Source: a virus. Taken from it: 49,816 bases of DNA. Position 1 is the first letter of the stretch, and every line of letters starts with the position of its first letter. A program made the position numbers and the translations under genes. Shown here one piece after another: positions 17,627 to 45,735 of the stretch. The notes under the pieces were generated by a model. That model saw nothing but the letters and a program-made list of their open reading frames with translations, was not told the DNA's origin and made no database searches. The stretch spans positions 1 to 49,816 of IMG/VR virus record IMGVR_UViG_3300007734_000716; one strand, written 5' to 3'.

Positions 17627-17823
17627 GCAATCCGCCAAGCTCTTACACCTAGGTGGTTCTTTTTAGTAGTAATATAAACTTTAACTTTAATCTTAGCTCT
17701 TTTAGCACCACACTCTATTGCATATACCATCTCAGCAGTATTAAGCGTAGGAATAAAAAAGCTTTCCCCAATGTTCATATAGTCAAAGGGGAATAACCAT
17801 TCGGGTTCATCAAGCTGATTCAA
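17623..17823 (-). CDS. Small conserved phage protein, function unknown
   Basis: About 66 residues if the TTG at 17823 is used: AAGGA lies eight bases upstream of it. A GTG at 17841 would give 72 residues but has weaker spacing. The core F-D-Y-M-N-I-G-E-S-F-F-I-P, then A-K-R-A-x-I-K-V-K-V-Y, and the C-terminal L-G-V-R-A-W-R-I are patterns familiar from short hypothetical phage proteins. It overlaps the end of the primase gene, is the last gene of the minus-strand arm, and its stop overlaps the stop of the giant virion gene. Confidence 0.7.
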   Translation of the reverse strand: MNQLDEPEWLFPFDYMNIGESFFIPTLNTAEMVYAIECGAKRAKIKVKVYITTKKNHLGVRAWRIA

Positions 17824-20761
17824 GTTCTGGTTCCTTTGCACCTAAAATTTTATCCACAAATTCTTTTCTCTTAAATCCATAGCATCGGACGTTATACTCG
17901 TTATTACCTGTATACTTCCACCCTGCAGTCATACGGATTCTTTTTTCAGATAGTTCTATGCCTGTATCTTTAATACCATTTTTAAACTCCATTAAGTTTG
18001 CTTTTCTTTCAGAGACTAAATAAGTATTAAATATAGTACGCGCAATATAAATAGTACCGCTATCTTCTATTCTAATTACTAATGGTGCTTTAGGTTCTTC
18101 ATACATCTTACCGTTTTTAATAACTAATGTACCTGCATGATTTTTGATTAGGAACTCAGATAATAAGTTTTCGTAATCCATTGTATTAACTTGAATGACA
18201 TTTTCTTTAATATTCTTAATCTCTCTAACTATCTTTTGGTAAATTCTTTCTACGCCAAAATTATCTAGTATTTCATACTTATTAAGTATATCCCCTGCAC
18301 CCATCGAGAAAGTAATTAAATTATGATAGAACCTATCTGCAGGGTCGAAGCCAATATCACCAATAAATCTAGTTAGCCATTTCTGGAATGTTGGGCCATA
18401 TTCTTGTTCTGGATGGTCATAATCTCTAATGATGTCCCCTTTAGATTCCATATCAAATATAGCTTTAATAAACATAGGTCCCGCATGTCCGAAGTTATGC
18501 TTCATAGTTTCAAAGATTTGCCTACCTAGCGTTTCATCTAACTTAATAGCTTCAGGTTGAGTAATCATAAACTCAATAAGACGTGCAACTTCACCATTAG
18601 GATCGGCTTTTGCTGCGGCTAACTTATCATATATAGAACTATTAGATGTCATAACTGCAATCATATTAGCTGATGCCTCATAAGCACGTTCAGCATTGAA
18701 AGAACCTTCTGCTCTAATCTTAGCTTTACCTGATGACAACGCATGAATTGTATTAGATAGGTCATCTGCTGTCATGTTAGTAATTTCATCTAGTGCTAAA
18801 GGTAGGTTATGTAGTGCGTTAAGTCTAGACTTTAATCCATTGAAGGTAGTATTTTGTTTACCTGTGTGGATATGTAACGCCTCTGGGTCTCCCCACATAC
18901 TTAGTGCAGAATATAGTGCCCCTGTCTTAGCCGCACCAGCTTTACCTGTTAAACATATTGTGCCCCCAGCTGTAGAAGAGTAAGCCATAAGTGGAGAAGC
19001 AAACCCAGCTAGCATAAAGAAAGCATGTAGTTCCATACCAGGAAGGTTAAGCTTATTAGCTGCTGCTTTCCAATTCTCATACGAACCTTTTTCATGTAGT
19101 AAAGGACCCACAACTCGCGTAGGCACCGATACTGGGACGCTTCGTACTTCTCCGTTTCTCATGTATTCTTTATCGCCTAATACAAAGGAAGTATGATCTT
19201 TATCTGTCCAACCCATTTGAGTACGCATGACGTCATCTCGACCATGATTTTCTAAGTATTGACCCCATTCAGTTATATAGTCCATAAAATGTATCACATT
19301 CTTTCTATTAATAATTATTGATTTACTTGCTAATATATCCATCATCTTATCAGGTGAGTAAGCACACTTAATTGGAAATAAAAACTCTCTAGGTGGATTA
19401 TGTTTATACTCAACTCTCATCAATATACAGTCACCATCTACATCGTTTCTAAGTTTCTTTAGTGCCCATACGTTTTGCTCACAGATTAAAATTGGGTTAG
19501 ATGGTACTAATTGCTTAGTGACTTTATCATATTCAGGAGGAATCTCTCTATATATACCACCATTAGGTCCAGCAAAGAAAGGTAATAGTCCTGATGGTAA
19601 AGTAAATGTACCTGGTGCTAATGTTATAGTAGTTAAAACAGTTTGCTCTACCGAACCAAACACAACAGGGTTCTCTTCTTGCATAGGTACTATAGGTATA
19701 ATAGGTGTTTCTCGTAGTTTGCGTGCGAAGATCAGAGGGTTAGAAGCTATACCTTTCTTAGGACAGTTTTGGCAGCCATCAGGATTAGCATTTTCAAACG
19801 ACGTACATGGATGTACCCCACCAAACGTAGCCGCTTTTAAGATGGTAGCTTCACGATTATAGTTTTTAGCTTTATCAGATATTGTATGTATAGCTGTTTC
19901 TGAATCTGTGCAACGACTAGCTACGGTTAACCCTGCAGTCCATAAATCATACGAGACAGAATCAGGATTCTCATAAATGTATTTAATCTGATTACATCCA
20001 ATACCTTTTAAACTTAAATCTAAAAGCTTTTCAAAACTATTTTCCCAATCACTAGCACCTTGTGCTTCACGTTCTTCTTGTGTTAAACCTTTTTTAGCTA
20101 ATTTTAATACTGCTTCAACACCTAAATCTTTAGGACTAATCTCATCTAAAAACTCTTTAAACTCATCAAACACATAGGTTGGCATTTCTTCGCTAAGTAC
20201 TTTAGTAAGTGCTGGAGGGTTAGCTTTCCAATTTGTGCAATTAGGTGTACGTGTAGCACGAGCTGCGTCAGCAGTTACGTTAGGATCAATTTTTAATCCA
20301 TTATCTAAACAGAACTTTTTAAATACCTCTGAATATAACTTCCACTCTTCAATAGGAATATCTCTATCAAAAGCCCACCATGCCCACATACCCCTACCAG
20401 AATCAAATCTAATAGGCTCAGGTAAATTAGCAGATGTAAGAAACTCATTCAAAGCATTTTCAGCTTCTTCTTTAGACGTATATTTTTTACCCTCTTTGTC
20501 TTCTGGGTCTACATCTAAATCAATAAATAAAGACTTAGAAAATACAGCTTCTTCTTTACCTCGTTTCCAACCTTTGTAAGTACTATGGGATACATAAATA
20601 CTAGTACCTAAAGGTTTTAACTCTTCTATCTTAGGCTCTAATTCTTCTATTGATTCTGCATAATAATGTCTTGTTGTACCTTCTTTAGGCTCAATGGTGA
20701 TAATACAATATACACCTTGTGAGGGAAGCACCTTCTTATAAAATTCTGTTATGCTTATCAT
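17810..20761 (-). CDS. Primase-helicase fusion (AEP-type primase plus DUF927-like ATPase)
   Basis: 983 residues from the ATG at 20761; a TTG two codons earlier is less likely. The N-terminal part looks like an archaeo-eukaryotic primase: D81-x-D83 (FIDLDVD), S-G-R-G at 121-124 with W-A-W-W, and D-P-N-V-T-A-D-A-A-R-A-T-R-T-P around 159-173. C319, C330 and C333 may bind zinc with another Cys. The C-terminal half is a DUF927-like P-loop ATPase with Walker A G606-K-A-G-A-A-K612-T and Walker B L-A-L-D658-E659. It should prime DNA synthesis and unwind the duplex, the task of T7 gp4 but with unrelated domains. It is encoded next to the HTH and Zn-cysteine protein genes. Confidence 0.85.
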   Translation of the reverse strand: MISITEFYKKVLPSQGVYCIITIEPKEGTTRHYYAESIEELEPKIEELKPLGTSIYVSHSTYKGWKRGKEEAVFSKSLFIDLDVDPEDKEGKKYTSKEEAENALNEFLTSANLPEPIRFDSGRGMWAWWAFDRDIPIEEWKLYSEVFKKFCLDNGLKIDPNVTADAARATRTPNCTNWKANPPALTKVLSEEMPTYVFDEFKEFLDEISPKDLGVEAVLKLAKKGLTQEEREAQGASDWENSFEKLLDLSLKGIGCNQIKYIYENPDSVSYDLWTAGLTVASRCTDSETAIHTISDKAKNYNREATILKAATFGGVHPCTSFENANPDGCQNCPKKGIASNPLIFARKLRETPIIPIVPMQEENPVVFGSVEQTVLTTITLAPGTFTLPSGLLPFFAGPNGGIYREIPPEYDKVTKQLVPSNPILICEQNVWALKKLRNDVDGDCILMRVEYKHNPPREFLFPIKCAYSPDKMMDILASKSIIINRKNVIHFMDYITEWGQYLENHGRDDVMRTQMGWTDKDHTSFVLGDKEYMRNGEVRSVPVSVPTRVVGPLLHEKGSYENWKAAANKLNLPGMELHAFFMLAGFASPLMAYSSTAGGTICLTGKAGAAKTGALYSALSMWGDPEALHIHTGKQNTTFNGLKSRLNALHNLPLALDEITNMTADDLSNTIHALSSGKAKIRAEGSFNAERAYEASANMIAVMTSNSSIYDKLAAAKADPNGEVARLIEFMITQPEAIKLDETLGRQIFETMKHNFGHAGPMFIKAIFDMESKGDIIRDYDHPEQEYGPTFQKWLTRFIGDIGFDPADRFYHNLITFSMGAGDILNKYEILDNFGVERIYQKIVREIKNIKENVIQVNTMDYENLLSEFLIKNHAGTLVIKNGKMYEEPKAPLVIRIEDSGTIYIARTIFNTYLVSERKANLMEFKNGIKDTGIELSEKRIRMTAGWKYTGNNEYNVRCYGFKRKEFVDKILGAKEPELESA

Positions 20762-20852
20762 ATACAATGCTTTCTATTTTTAGAGGCAACACTACCCCGC
20801 CACACCATATGTGTGTTTTTAAAATTAACTACCGCGAAATTCTATTTTACTA
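20762..20852 (-). other. Leader of the primase gene
   Basis: This 91-base gap is unusual in an arm where most genes overlap. It holds a small hairpin on the minus strand (CACAC-ATATG-GTGTG, at about 20805-20819) followed by a G-rich stretch. The ribosome binding site before 20761 is weak (AGAAAG). It may carry an internal promoter or an attenuator for the primase gene, but I could not find a convincing -35/-10 pair. Confidence 0.3.
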
Positions 20853-21155
20853 CTAAATAATTATCGAGTCTAAATATTGTTGAGCTATAGATAAAGTAGG
20901 TGCAGGTAAATGTCCCTCACTAAATCCTTTATTTACTTCTTCAATAAACTTATTAACTCGTACCTTATTTGTGTCCCTTATATCTTGACCCCTAAACCAA
21001 CTATGTATCGTATAGCGTGATACACCCACCTTACGTGCAACATAAAGCGTAGGTAGGTTTGCTTTGACACATAGTTTGGCCATTTGAACCCCAAGGTTAT
21101 CAGGGTCCATAGTTTGCAAGTTCGCTAAAAAATCTTGACTGTAGGGTCTAGCCAT
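20853..21155 (-). CDS. Helix-turn-helix DNA-binding protein
   Basis: 100 residues; ATG overlaps the preceding TAA (TAATG). Residues 29-60 (CVKANLPTLYVARKVGVSRY, then TIHSWFRGQDIRD) fit a Xre/Cro-like helix-turn-helix with A-R-K-V-G-V-S as the turn and W-F-R-G after the recognition helix. There is no second domain. It could be a repressor of the early arm or a replication accessory; its place between the Zn-cysteine protein and primase genes favours the latter a little. Its operator is unknown. Confidence 0.72.
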   Translation of the reverse strand: MARPYSQDFLANLQTMDPDNLGVQMAKLCVKANLPTLYVARKVGVSRYTIHSWFRGQDIRDTNKVRVNKFIEEVNKGFSEGHLPAPTLSIAQQYLDSIII

Positions 21156-39766: not shown

Positions 39767-39918
39767 TATATTTCTCCTCTTTTCTTTAGTTCTAGATATT
39801 GTTTATACATCATCTCTTTTTTGTTCTTCACGTGAAGGTGATGCTCATATGTCGTTGCCTTCTCTACATGTCCCTTCTTTTCTAAAAACTCATAAAACTG
39901 CTCTCTCGTCATAATCAT
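39766..39918 (-). CDS. Small hypothetical protein
   Basis: 50 residues, GGGAGGGATAG before the ATG at 39918. It is helical and basic (R-E-Q-F-Y-E-F-L-E-K-K-G-H-V-E-K-A, then K-N-K-K-E-M-M-Y-K-Q-Y-L). It overlaps both neighbours (ATGA and TAATG). No domain recognised. Confidence 0.6.
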   Translation of the reverse strand: MIMTREQFYEFLEKKGHVEKATTYEHHLHVKNKKEMMYKQYLELKKRGEI

Positions 39919-40124
39919 TTCACTATCCCTCCCTTGTTATTAAGTCCTGTTAAGTCATCTCGGTTTGTGATGACCATGTAATTCGATTTATGCATAGGTG
40001 CTATGGTGTGCTTTTTATTTCTTGCATCAACCTCGCCACACTTTAAACACGTGGTATAACCTAGCTTGTATCTTGCATCTAATACATGGTCGCCACACTT
40101 GATACATAGATTTTTGTATTCCAT
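39915..40124 (-). CDS. Small zinc-ribbon protein
   Basis: 69 residues. C-x-x-C (L-C-I-K-C-G-D) and C-L-K-C (Y-T-T-C-L-K-C-G-E) are 15 residues apart, fitting a zinc ribbon; the following basic stretch A-R-N-K-K-H-T-I-A-P-M-H-K-S-N-Y-M-V is a pattern of short phage proteins. It may bind nucleic acid or RNA polymerase. The stop overlaps the next start (ATGA). Confidence 0.68.
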   Translation of the reverse strand: MEYKNLCIKCGDHVLDARYKLGYTTCLKCGEVDARNKKHTIAPMHKSNYMVITNRDDLTGLNNKGGIVK

Positions 40125-40401: not shown

Positions 40402-40423
40402 GTCGTTCACGTTGTAGTGAATT
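40402..40423 (-). other. Leader hairpin, copy 3 of a repeated element
   Basis: Inverted repeat ATTCACTACnnnGTGAAC on the minus strand, about 25 bases before the start of the first early gene. It agrees closely with the copy before the VRR-NUC gene (31695-31716). Confidence 0.5.
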
Positions 40424-40484
40424 TGCTTTTATATGTAGGGTTTGGTTTGTATGACGTATTATTTTCTCTCCCCACATAACTACC

Positions 40485-40513
40485 ATTATACATGAACTTG
40501 ACATATATACCAA
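40485..40513 (-). promoter_or_regulatory. Candidate main leftward early promoter
   Basis: On the minus strand TTGGTA (40513-40508) and a perfect TATAAT (40490-40485) are 17 bases apart. The spacer contains the complement of AACTTGACATATA, the 13-mer also present in the promoter at 37859. Read on the plus strand, the 13-mer holds a perfect TTGACA, so a divergent promoter is possible. The promoter would drive the leftward early arm from 40377. Confidence 0.6.
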
Positions 40514-40553
40514 TAACTTTACATATCTTTTTTACTTTTTGGTTTAGCTAGTT

Positions 40554-40978
40554 TGTTCCAAATGTTCCAAGAATGTTCCAGTTTTCGCTTGACATATAGG
40601 AACAAAAATTAGGTGGGGGTTTGTGCCGTTCCGTGCTTGTAAGTGCTTGTATTATATATATTATATTATTATTATTTATTTATTATTTAGTAGTGTTTTT
40701 GCAAAATGTTCCAATGTTCCAAGTTTTTTTAAGGGGGGGTCTCCTTTTCTGAAATTTGTTTGCACTGCGAAAAACAAGGTCTTGCTTTGTATAACTTTGA
40801 AAATTCACCCCCCTACCCCTGCAACGTTGGAACATTGGAACAAATGAATATAATCAAGCACTTAGGTTGGAACATTTTTTGGAACATTATGGAACATAGT
40901 TGGAACAAATCATTATCTATAATTAAACTCATACACCATACATCAGCTATACATATCTTACACGATAGACTTGGAACA
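40554..40978. repeat. Iteron-like TGTTCCA / TGGAACA array with dyad symmetry
   Basis: Twelve exact 7-base copies, spaced 8-12 bases within clusters, with all left copies in one orientation and all right copies in the other. TGTTCCAATGTTCCAA at 40707-40722 is a perfect inverted repeat of TTGGAACATTGGAACA at 40827-40842. A further GGAACA lies at 40599. The spacing near one helical turn suggests cooperative binding by a protein. Confidence 0.75.
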
Positions 40979-40991
40979 AATTCACTACTAC

Positions 40992-41075
40992 GTGAATGGC
41001 TAAATAAACTTCTTGGTCATAGTCCAATCCACAACCACGCAAAAACGACGTCGACGACACATAACTGGTTTCAAT
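40992..41075. repeat. Diverged direct repeat, left copy
   Basis: Shares GTGAATGrCTAAATAA and a 23-base block starting GACGACACATAACTGG with 41889-41957, each block with one mismatch. Together the copies flank the gene at 41201-41806 and its control signals. A third partial copy (ATAACTGGTTTCAA) is at about 41141-41154. Confidence 0.6.
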
Positions 41076-41165
41076 AAGGTGGTAGGCAAATGGTGGCTAC
41101 GCATGGCCTATGAATATCTTAACTAACGCCCGCTCGCTTAATAACTGGTTTCAAAAATCGAGGCC

Positions 41166-41200: not shown

Positions 41201-41806
41201 CTAACTAACCCATTTACGATTAAATTCTGAAATCGCGGTTATGAGTTTTTTCTCGTTAGCCGAATCATCACCACGCGCCTTTGCATTGACGCATTTTTTC
41301 TTAAGGCCATCAAGGGTTTCTTTGACAGTTTCGGCAAAGGTTCGCGTTGCACCACGTTCGCGCGGTTTACCCTCATTTTTTAAGGCCTTAATTGCTTTTT
41401 TAAGATCATTCAAGCGGTTACTACAATACTTGCTTACTTGATCACGCTCGGCCTTGATTAAAGCATGAAGTTGAGGATTGCTAGTTCTCAATGCGCCGAA
41501 GGCCTGCGGTGTATAGGCCATGATATTCGCAACGGTTCGGTGATACTTCTCGCCTTTGTGATTATCGAAAGCTAACTTTTCAACGGGTAGATAATTACCC
41601 GATTCGACTATGAAATGCTGGTCAATCTTAGGTTGATTTTCCGCAACCCTTAATTGATAACCCGCAAAGAGTTCGGCCTTAGGTTCGTCCGCAACCTCTT
41701 CGTCAAAGTTCGGATACTGTTCATAGACTTGACGGGCTAGACTACGCTCGTTGTCTTTGTTTGTGGCCTGTTGATAACCGATTTGTTTTAAGTTTAAAGT
41801 TTTCAT
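41201..41806 (-). CDS. Hypothetical basic protein of a single-gene cassette
   Basis: 201 residues, TATGGAGTAG before the ATG. Residues 20-75 are acidic (Y-P-N-F-D-E-E-V-A-D-E-P-K), 75-120 mixed, and 125-201 are a basic helical region (R-L-N-D-L-K-K-A-I-K-A-L-K-N-E-G-K-P-R-E-R-G) ending N-R-K-W-V-S. No family is recognised. Base use is unlike the neighbours: GGCC recurs many times in this gene but is rare around it. It has its own promoter, operator-like inverted repeat and terminator, and is flanked by diverged direct repeats. A DNA-binding or counter-defence role would fit but is not shown. Confidence 0.75.
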   Translation of the reverse strand: MKTLNLKQIGYQQATNKDNERSLARQVYEQYPNFDEEVADEPKAELFAGYQLRVAENQPKIDQHFIVESGNYLPVEKLAFDNHKGEKYHRTVANIMAYTPQAFGALRTSNPQLHALIKAERDQVSKYCSNRLNDLKKAIKALKNEGKPRERGATRTFAETVKETLDGLKKKCVNAKARGDDSANEKKLITAISEFNRKWVS

Positions 41807-43529: not shown

Positions 43530-43574
43530 TGTGAAATCGCTGCAAATATAAACTCATAGGTGACACAGCAACCC

Positions 43575-44192
43575 ATGCAAACTCAAAATACTGAAGAAAA
43601 TCAACAACTTGACCAAAATCCTGTGGTCATGTACCCCAATATAGACGAAAATATACCCATTCCTAAGAGTGCACGCGAGGCTTTACCTGATTTAAGCAAC
43701 GAAGAAGAGGTAGAAATGCTAGCTAATACTATAAAACTTATTTCAGACTTAACCGGACAGCCGATCCAGGCTACGCAAGATGATGTGATGGAAGCAAAAA
43801 CGATTGCTGAGACAATTATAAAAAACCCTGAGAATAAAATTCAGTTAAAAAAATATAAAAGCCCTGTCTTAGCATCGTTAGCAGGTATGGTAGCAGAGTT
43901 GAACTCAGATAAACTTGTAGATGACTTAAAAGAGTTAAAGACGTTTGTGGTGAATGGACTGATTAAAGAAGCTACAACTGCGGATAAACCTAAAGAAAGA
44001 ATTACGGCCCTTCGTGCCATAGGTGAGGTGGATGGTGTGGATGCGTTTAAGAAACATACTGAAGTGGTTCATAAAAATATGTCGATGGATGATATTGAGT
44101 CACGCTTACAAACACTTGTTACTAAATTACAAAAACGACTGGATGTTAAAGACTCTGAAGTGATTGATGCAGAAGTTGTAAAAGATGAGTGA
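43575..44192 (+). CDS. Putative terminase small subunit
   Basis: 205 residues from the ATG at 43575, with AGGTGA eleven bases upstream; a GTG at 43560 lies within that binding site. The N-terminal 35 residues are Gln/Asn/Pro-rich. From about 45 on it is helical and Lys/Glu/Asp-rich (V-E-M-L-A-N-T-I-K-L-I-S-D-L-T-G), with a predicted oligomerising helix around 150-180. There is no sequence signature I can name. The call rests on its place directly before, and coupled (8-base overlap) to, the large terminase gene. Confidence 0.6.
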   Translation: MQTQNTEENQQLDQNPVVMYPNIDENIPIPKSAREALPDLSNEEEVEMLANTIKLISDLTGQPIQATQDDVMEAKTIAETIIKNPENKIQLKKYKSPVLASLAGMVAELNSDKLVDDLKELKTFVVNGLIKEATTADKPKERITALRAIGEVDGVDAFKKHTEVVHKNMSMDDIESRLQTLVTKLQKRLDVKDSEVIDAEVVKDE

Positions 44193-45735
44193 TGATAAAA
44201 AAGAACAAGAAAAGCGAGTATTATCTCTTATTAGGTTTCTAGGTGCACACAAACAACACTTAGATGATGACGAAGCTGCAGAAGTCGATGCACTACTAGA
44301 ACTGACAGATGGTAAGATAGTACAAGATGTAGGTAGTACAAGCTTTTTAGAATTTATACAACATGTATATCCAGGATATAAAGTAGGAGCGCATCATGCA
44401 AGGTTGGCTAAGATATTTGAGGACATTGCCAAAGGTAAAAAGAAAAGAGTTATTGTTAATATTGCGCCACGACACGGGAAGTCTGAACTTATCTCATATC
44501 TGGCACCTGCTTGGTTTTTGGGAAAGTTTCCTCACAAGAAAGTTATTATGGCGTCTCATACCGCTGATCTTGCTGTTGGGTTTGGTCGTCGCGTTCGTAA
44601 TCTTGTTGGGTCTGATGCTTATAAAGATATATTTCCTGAAGTAGAATTACAAGCTGACTCGAAGTCGGCATCACGATGGGGGACAAACTTTAATGGAGAA
44701 TATTTTGCGATTGGTGTGGGTGGCGCCCTCGCTGGTCGCGGGGCTGATCTTTTTATCATTGACGATCCACACTCTGAGCAAGATGCAAAACTCGGACGAC
44801 CTGATGTTTTTCTCCCTGCTTGGGAGTGGTTTCAGTCTGGCCCTATACAGCGTCTTATGCCTGGCGGTGCGATTATTGTAGTGATGACACGGTGGTCTAA
44901 GCTTGATTTAACAGGCCAGATCGTGAATCAGATGGTAAAGAATGATGAAGTAGATCAGTGGGAAGTTGTTGAGTTTCCAGCAATTATAGAAGATAAAGAA
45001 GGTAATGAGTCACCACTTTGGCCTGAGTTTTGGAGTTTAGAAGAGTTACAAGCTAAAAAAGCAGCGTTAGATACACGATATTGGAATGCACAGTACTTAC
45101 AAAATCCAGTATCAGAAGAAGGTGCGTTAATTAAAAGAGAGTGGTGGAATATATGGGAAGGGGAAGATCCTCCTAGTTGTGAATTCACTATTATGAGTTT
45201 AGATGCAGCCCAAGAGGCTAATAATAGAGCGGACTACAACGCGCTCACTACTTGGGGCGTCTTTTTTAACGAAGAAACCAATAACTATAATATAATACTG
45301 TTAAATTCAATTAAGAAACGATTAGAGTTCCCTGACCTCAAAGCATTAGTGTTAGAAGAGTATAAAGATTGGGAACCTGATGCATTTTTAGTTGAGAAAA
45401 AATCTAACGGTGCTGCTCTCTATCAAGAAATGAGAAGAATGGGCTTACCGGTAGGTGAATTTACACCTGGAAAAGGGCAAGATAAGATTAGTCGAGTAAA
45501 TGCTATTTCCGATTTATTCAGAAGTGGTATAGTATGGGCGCCTGATAGACGATGGGCTCATGATGTAATAGAAGAGTGTAATGATTTTCCTAGTGGTGCG
45601 AATGATGACTTGGTGGATAGCACTACTTTAGCATTATTAAGATTTAGACAGGGTGGGTTTATTAGATTACCTAGTGATGAACCTGAAGATATACCAGGAT
45701 TTAGAAGTTCTCGAAACAGATTATACGCAATATAA
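44185..45735 (+). CDS. terL: Terminase large subunit
   Basis: 516 residues. The ATPase half has Walker A A94-P-R-H-G-K99-S (NIAPRHGKSE) and Walker B I-I-D183-D184 (ADLFIIDDPHSEQD), with V-V-M-T-R-W as the coupling motif. The nuclease half has M-S-L-D-A-A-Q, A-F-L-V-E-K-K-S-N-G and the closing N-D-D-L-V-D-S-T-T-L-A-L, carrying the acidic metal ligands of the RNase H-like fold. It cuts concatemers and drives DNA into proheads. It overlaps the preceding gene by eight bases and the portal follows after nine bases. Confidence 0.94.
   Translation: MSDDKKEQEKRVLSLIRFLGAHKQHLDDDEAAEVDALLELTDGKIVQDVGSTSFLEFIQHVYPGYKVGAHHARLAKIFEDIAKGKKKRVIVNIAPRHGKSELISYLAPAWFLGKFPHKKVIMASHTADLAVGFGRRVRNLVGSDAYKDIFPEVELQADSKSASRWGTNFNGEYFAIGVGGALAGRGADLFIIDDPHSEQDAKLGRPDVFLPAWEWFQSGPIQRLMPGGAIIVVMTRWSKLDLTGQIVNQMVKNDEVDQWEVVEFPAIIEDKEGNESPLWPEFWSLEELQAKKAALDTRYWNAQYLQNPVSEEGALIKREWWNIWEGEDPPSCEFTIMSLDAAQEANNRADYNALTTWGVFFNEETNNYNIILLNSIKKRLEFPDLKALVLEEYKDWEPDAFLVEKKSNGAALYQEMRRMGLPVGEFTPGKGQDKISRVNAISDLFRSGIVWAPDRRWAHDVIEECNDFPSGANDDLVDSTTLALLRFRQGGFIRLPSDEPEDIPGFRSSRNRLYAI

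Follow-up and report, generated by a model that had tools for sequence, protein, structure and literature searches.

The mirror array and its setting

The window considered here is the whole of a 49.8-kb virus record from IMG/VR. Its leftward early block encodes a primase-helicase that combines an AEP PrimPol with a DUF927 helicase (17810-20767, minus strand), a second helicase, a family A DNA polymerase and nucleases, and its rightward genes include those for the terminase (terL, 44185-45735) and the portal. The terminase is about 51% identical to those of pelagiphage HTVC027P and phage DSL-LC04, and its gene starts 3.2 kb downstream of a dense array of short repeats (40554-40978), which the preliminary description placed close to the point where leftward and rightward genes part. 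The array is indeed near this point but not at it, as leftward ORFs persist to its right up to about 43481 and transcription diverges 2-3 kb to its right. The TerS-like gene next to the terminase (43560-44192) diverges much more quickly than its neighbours terL and portal: in more distant relatives it is 26-46% identical, and these two are 83-93% identical. A small Zn-ribbon protein (39915-40124, CxxC...CxxCGE...HT..PMHKSNY) is encoded on the other side of the array; 62 of 98 array loci have it, in most cases no more than 1.5 kb away from the repeats.

The window contains 24 copies of TGTTCCA or TGGAACA where 6.8 are expected, a number that no shuffle reached. Half of these 24 sites lie within the 425 bp of the array, five on the plus strand followed by seven on the minus strand, and none of them breaks the mirror arrangement. 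The mirror score of the noncoding gap is 12, compared with a maximum of 4 in 300 shuffles of the gap, which bears out the twelve-site mirror array that had been described. The left arm begins with three outer iterons on the plus strand (40554-40580; TGTTCCA at 40554, 40563 and 40574), whose position is kept in relatives. These are followed by an IHF-like site, TAAGTGCTTGTAT (40640-40652, minus strand), which has two mismatches to the inverted IHF consensus and is mismatch-free in many relatives (for example TAAGTGCTTGATT), and by a run of 40 nt of A and T only (40650-40689). This run, already noted as a pure A/T tract within the array, is a candidate unwinding element or the A-tract of the left IHF site. 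An inner-left pair of plus-strand iterons (40707-40721; TGTTCCA at 40707 and 40715, an 8-bp spacing) then faces an inner-right pair on the minus strand (40828-40842; TGGAACA at 40828 and 40836), 113 bp away from start to start, counted from 40715. As reported earlier, the two inner pairs form a perfect 16-bp inverted repeat (40707-40722 with 40827-40842). Between them lies a conserved central core, GTTTGCACTGCGAAAAAC (40758-40775, plus strand), and a CACTGCG-like core is also found in other clades. The right arm carries a perfect match to the IHF consensus WATCAANNNNTTR, namely AATCAAGCACTTA (40852-40864, plus strand), and five outer iterons on the minus strand (40868-40978; TGGAACA at 40868, 40880, 40890, 40901 and 40972). 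An imperfect outer inverted repeat (40406-40425 with 40977-40996) brackets the array as well.

Several other elements lie alongside these repeats. At the left edge of the array there is a leftward promoter-like site, TTGGTA-17-TATAAT, with 10 of 12 matches (40485-40513, minus strand), the -10 part of which is mostly kept among aligned relatives. A second repeat, TTGACATATA / TTTACATAT, occurs at 40497-40507, 40517-40530, 40588-40598 and 40947-40960, is kept in the alignment of close relatives, and possibly represents promoter parts. The direct repeat ATAACTGGTTTCAA(T/A)AA is found right beside the array, at 41061-41077 and 41141-41157. Rfam and tRNA searches gave no matches.

The cumulative GC-skew minimum of the window lies at about 42.9 kb, which is 2.1 kb from the array. 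In 25 of 25 genomes tested, the array is within 10% of the genome length from this minimum (median 4%). The skew switch expected near an origin is found close to the array in each of these genomes, though in the window it is displaced from the array itself, and the minimum also tracks gene direction, that is, divergent transcription.

Conservation and concerted switching of the repeats

Relatives were collected by a pattern scan and by terL searches of IMG/VR, yielding several hundred. In 88 arrays with the same 7-mer, a count that includes near-duplicates, 800 of the 897 sites are oriented as the mirror layout requires, and all array loci are syntenic. When mirror arrays of any 7-mer were sought, independently of the motif, 154 of the 205 relatives that could be scored had a strong array (score of at least 6) upstream of their terminase genes, compared with 1 of 255 downstream control regions. 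The remaining 51 of the 205 loci lack a strong array, some of them through a contig end or a degenerate motif. There is one mirror array per genome, and the set holds 102 non-redundant "arrays", a few of which (e.g., L226, L262 and L296) are probably spurious. The layout predicted to recur in related phages is therefore conserved, although the 7-mer itself varies. About 20 versions of it exist, mostly of the form TGTNNNN, and each is used throughout its own array. TGTTCCA is the commonest; the others include TGTTCAA, TGTTCTA, TGTTCTG, TGTTCTC, TGTTCCG, TGTTCCC, TGTTCATG, TGTTACA, TGTACCA, TGTACGC, TGTTGCC, TGTGTCC, and more. In an alignment of ten close relatives all iterons switch jointly while the remainder of the element stays put. 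Since all sites switch in concert, the variation points to a phage-encoded protein of changing specificity as the binder of the iterons.

The spacing of the parts is conserved along with their order. The inner tandem pairs mostly have an 8-bp spacing and are opposed at 96-135 bp in most arrays. Helical phasing of this inner gap is strong in 38 arrays and ambiguous in sets of 88 and 66 arrays; because the signal weakens in larger samples, phasing of the two array halves is suggestive only and is not claimed here. In 65 of 88 arrays, irrespective of the motif, the longest A/T run is on the left side of the inner-left pair, and it typically starts 42-66 bp ahead of the inner-left site. The array thus has tandem iterons at 8-bp spacing with an A/T tract at a fixed distance, the combination of tandem iterons and an unwinding element that characterizes iteron origins. 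The central CACTGCG core is conserved.

Array DNA (44.9 kb) contains the IHF consensus WATCAANNNNTTR 124 times and flanking DNA (919 kb) contains it 108 times, a 23-fold enrichment. Permuted versions of the consensus have a median enrichment of 1.4-fold, and the single exception, at 26-fold, differs only trivially from the consensus itself. At least one consensus site is present in 67 of 88 arrays, and 31 have sites in both arms. As in IHF-dependent sites, the position is fixed: the consensus lies 23, 34 or 45 bp to the right of the inner-right iteron, with an inverted copy in the left arm, and in aligned relatives the N4 of the site varies while the consensus bases are retained. Three loci with TATAACA/AAATTAC-type repeats (L058, L061 and L075) carry 5-7 perfect IHF consensus sites, all or nearly all of them in one orientation.

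Inheritance with the replication genes

Natural exchanges of gene modules separate the replication genes from the structural genes. Six phages (HTVC023P, HTVC027P, 023Pt_psg01, DSL-LC04, MinM2 and CRP-901) have terL, portal and other virion genes in common with the window, and MinM2 shares TerS as well; the primase-helicase is not among the shared genes. A mirror array with IHF sites was found in none of these six. Conversely, five relatives (Pseudomonas phage Rollin, the E. coli phage-plasmid pSTEC648_2, Rhizobium phage RHph_TM3_14A, FP_Epona and Thermoanaerobacterium phage THSA-485A) share the primase-helicase and the second helicase, and gave no match to models of the window terL, portal and TerS (for THSA-485A, in the surroundings of the DUF927 gene only). 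Four of these five (Rollin, pSTEC648_2, FP_Epona and THSA-485A) carry the array, and in three of the four it comprises facing tandem iteron pairs 105-114 bp apart. Rollin has a mirror array of TATGCAA, accompanied by one IHF site and a stretch of A/T; several copies of a palindromic sequence, AAAAGGTAGCAAGTTACTACCTTTT, also occur around it (L517, 1-75, 227-240 and 392-500). In pSTEC648_2, a 60.5-kb element (L570/L571, CP061838), the noncoding region at about 8.7-9.6 kb has an A/T tract, two IHF consensus sites and a TGTAGCA pair spaced by 8 bp; the opposed pair is 106/114 bp away and has one site with one mismatch. A megablast comparison with 5,426 complete E. coli genomes gave no match to the origin region of this phage-plasmid. 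In FP_Epona and THSA-485A the opposed tandem pairs are 105 and 107 bp apart and lie directly downstream of the DUF927 gene. Shuffled sequence totalling 575 kb contained no cluster with the strict pair-gap-pair pattern. RHph_TM3_14A is ambiguous, as its only two IHF consensus sites share one noncoding gap but its mirror cluster is weak and is equalled by 8% of shuffles. No array was found near the DUF927 gene of two gut phages, and cellular-genome contigs with primase-helicase homologues (L527-L541) either showed no array or were too short. The array evidently follows the replicase and not the terminase, and its presence with the replication genes and absence with structural genes only indicate that it is an origin rather than a packaging site.

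On comparative evidence, and above all on this co-inheritance, the array is very probably the replication origin of the phage, of a SaPI/PICI-like kind and opened by the phage primase-helicase. The candidate origin of the preliminary description is further supported by the conserved layout, the concerted switching of the motif, the fixed A/T tract and the IHF sites; its other proposal, a master control site, is not needed, even though a leftward promoter-like sequence does lie at the left edge. What the sequences directly display is the element and its conservation, its inheritance with the replication module, its IHF and A/T parts, and a local covariation with the C-terminus of the primase-helicase (see below).

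The packaging alternative is nevertheless worth setting out, as the array is 3.2 kb upstream of terL. A site of the pac/cos type would have the 210-aa TerS-like protein (43560-44192) bind both iteron groups with the assistance of IHF, and the terminase cut the central core. The much faster divergence of TerS than of terL and portal, down to 26% identity in phages with other motifs, is in line with this idea. IHF sites and short repeats around a core also compose P1 pac and lambda cosB. Those sites are bound by terminase, and a site of this type would be inherited with it, whereas phages that have terL and portal (in MinM2 also TerS) without the replicase have no array, and replicase phages without a terL, portal or TerS homologue carry it, two of them directly downstream of the helicase gene. 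The link between TerS and the motif is no stronger than that for neighbouring genes, and packaging proceeds in one direction, in contrast to the mirror symmetry of the site. Contig ends in IMG/VR are not virion ends. A packaging function is thus very unlikely, and the swaps rule out TerS as the main candidate for the binder.

It is likewise highly improbable that the array is in essence a transcription control region, in which a phage regulator would use the repeats as operators for leftward early and rightward late transcription. Its location between these two gene sets, the leftward promoter-like sequence retained at its left edge and the small HTH protein encoded in the window are what such a region might contain, but promoter-like sites in the array region are no commoner than in shuffles. 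The recognition helix of the HTH protein (20853-21155) is identical in phages with TGTTCCA, TGTTACA and TGTTCTC iterons, which also speaks against this protein as the binder. In FP_Epona and THSA-485A, moreover, the pair-gap-pair element immediately follows the DUF927 gene and does not lie where genes diverge. Alongside an origin function, the array may possibly have a role in transcription control. Finally, a centromere-like partition or resolution site is barely credible: P1 parS combines boxes and IHF much as iterons flank IHF sites here, and pSTEC648_2, which is maintained as a plasmid, encodes a ParB-family protein, but the window proteins scanned (part of the ORFs) include no ParA/ParB homologue, the phage family looks lytic, partition sites make no use of an A/T tract, and the array follows the replicase.

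The candidate initiator and related replicons

Under the origin reading, the binder would be the initiator. The preliminary description listed the HTH protein, the Zn-ribbon protein and the product of 41201-41806 as proteins to test for binding. Besides the unchanged HTH helix, the Zn-ribbon protein is absent or replaced in other array carriers, and the 41201-41806 product is absent in other array-carrying phages or differs between relatives, so that none of the three is probably the binder. The list omitted the best candidate, the primase-helicase at 17810-20767, which is proposed here to bind the iterons by a predicted C-terminal winged helix. In profile comparisons with the PDB this protein matches the Rep of SaPIbov1 (8tch, E 9.8e-27) and SCCmec Cch (5dgk, 7.3e-21). 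Its AlphaFold model (mean pLDDT 79) best matches the fold of 5dgk (2e-19), followed by 8tch (6.5e-16) and then AEP primases, and contains a C-terminal helix-helix-strand-wing-strand fold at about residues 905-966. The PrimPol/DUF927/winged-helix arrangement has been described, with the winged helix suggested as the origin reader (PMC5862659), and SaPI Rep binds its origin iterons via its C-terminal domain (PMC7581432). The C-terminal domain of the window primase-helicase may act likewise, as its predicted fold and its local covariation with the motif suggest indirectly.

The covariation of proteins with the motif bears on this proposal. Over whole proteins, most replication proteins correlate with the motif and the full-length primase-helicase does so weakly (r 0.14, p 0.11), several other replication proteins tracking the motif better. 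As the whole-protein test was not decisive, it was repeated by region, using primase-helicase pairs of at least 55% overall identity, which are few and related. Relative to the rest of the protein, identity in the winged-helix region changes by -0.01 in pairs with the same motif and by -0.12 in pairs with different motifs; for residues 941-985 the values are -0.02 and -0.23 (p = 0.0014). Identity is lost in the strand and wing of the winged helix, specifically where the motifs are different. Residues 865-904, just ahead of the winged helix, have a similar but smaller effect, and the PrimPol and AAA+ domains show no motif-linked loss of identity in this regional test. One phage, G008, illustrates the effect: its whole primase-helicase is 86% identical to that of G034, whose motif is TGTTCCA, and 80% to that of G009, which has the same motif as G008, TGTTCTC, but the order is reversed at the C-terminus (61% and 83%, respectively). 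As the pairs are few and related, these results support a C-terminal reading of the motif but do not prove it, and the quick diversification of TerS counts against them as well. The relation also appears to be many-to-one, TGTTCCA apparently being read by primase-helicases that are 35-45% identical, and WIN and G003 share a motif despite C-termini just 36% alike. In a further phage (G004, L427) the primase-helicase is 43% identical to that of the window, the neighbouring replication genes are 80-92% identical and the motif is another one as well, a pattern that suggests gene exchange.

PICI origins consist of an A/T-rich region flanked by two iteron sets, an organisation described as unique among known replicons (PMC6092414). 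The window element is alike in having two iteron sets and an A/T-rich stretch, in iterons that are private to each initiator (PMC7581432, PMC6092414), and in an initiator candidate that is a DUF927/MCM-like self-loading helicase homologous to SaPIbov1 Rep (PDB 8tch). It differs in that the main A/T tract is not central but lies within the left arm, between the outer-left and inner-left iterons (as in 65/88 arrays), that the array is strictly mirror-oriented, carries IHF sites in each arm and has a conserved core at its centre, and that the primase is fused to the helicase and encoded by large phages. SaPI origins lie directly downstream of rep, whereas the window array is about 20 kb from the initiator gene, a distance that counts against the comparison; in FP_Epona and THSA-485A the array is directly downstream of the DUF927 gene, as in SaPIs. 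Judged from its sequence, the element is most likely an origin of the SaPI/PICI-initiator type in a new phage version that is mirror-symmetric, IHF-armed and trans-acting. SCCmec provides the best structural match of the primase-helicase (Cch, PDB 5dgk), and the C-terminal domain of Cch2 also binds short repeats, but Cch2 is a member of another helicase family and the putative SCCmec origin consists of three short direct repeats adjacent to the gene, without a mirror array. In the origins of SV40 large T and papillomavirus E1, short inverted sites seat two opposed hexameric helicases by an A/T tract. This analogy has also been drawn elsewhere (PMC7581432). The viral helicases are, however, unrelated or remotely related, bind by an N-terminal domain, and use far fewer sites and no IHF. 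The origins of R6K gamma, pSC101, lambda and P4 likewise contain iterons, an A/T-rich unwinding element and, in some, IHF, but they have one-sided arrays of direct repeats and initiators of other families.

A mechanism can be proposed on this basis. The primase-helicase, encoded about 20 kb away, would act in trans, its C-terminal winged helix binding the iterons, and the inner tandem pairs, which face each other in mirror fashion at a distance of 113 bp, would seat two helicase assemblies in opposite orientation. By bending both arms, IHF may join the outer and inner iterons in one complex. Melting at the A/T tract or at the core would then allow the helicases to depart in opposite directions, giving bidirectional forks, with the fused primase domain beginning synthesis and the phage PolA continuing it. 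The iteron sequence would be private to each lineage and evolve in concert with the initiator. We regard as evenly balanced the broader proposition that this is a general, undescribed type of origin in DUF927 primase-helicase phages of distant hosts, with mirror tandem pairs about ten helical turns apart, arms bent by IHF and an iteron code private to each lineage, which changes as a whole together with the C-terminal winged helix. If this is true, the relatives would fall into replication-compatibility groups.

A probable origin, together with candidates for its initiator and for the specificity domain, is now at hand for uncultured aquatic phages of one large family, and full-size phages are linked to the SaPI/PICI replicon, whose organisation has been reported as unlike that of any other known replicon (PMC6092414). 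As the element also occurs in an E. coli phage-plasmid, it is testable in laboratory strains. The co-change of initiator and origin is a long-standing question for iteron replicons, on which the roughly 20 natural origin versions bear; each with its own initiator, they constitute a data set on DNA recognition by winged helices. Because the layout is kept while the repeats are rewritten jointly, the recognition code between a starter protein and its start site is open to direct test.
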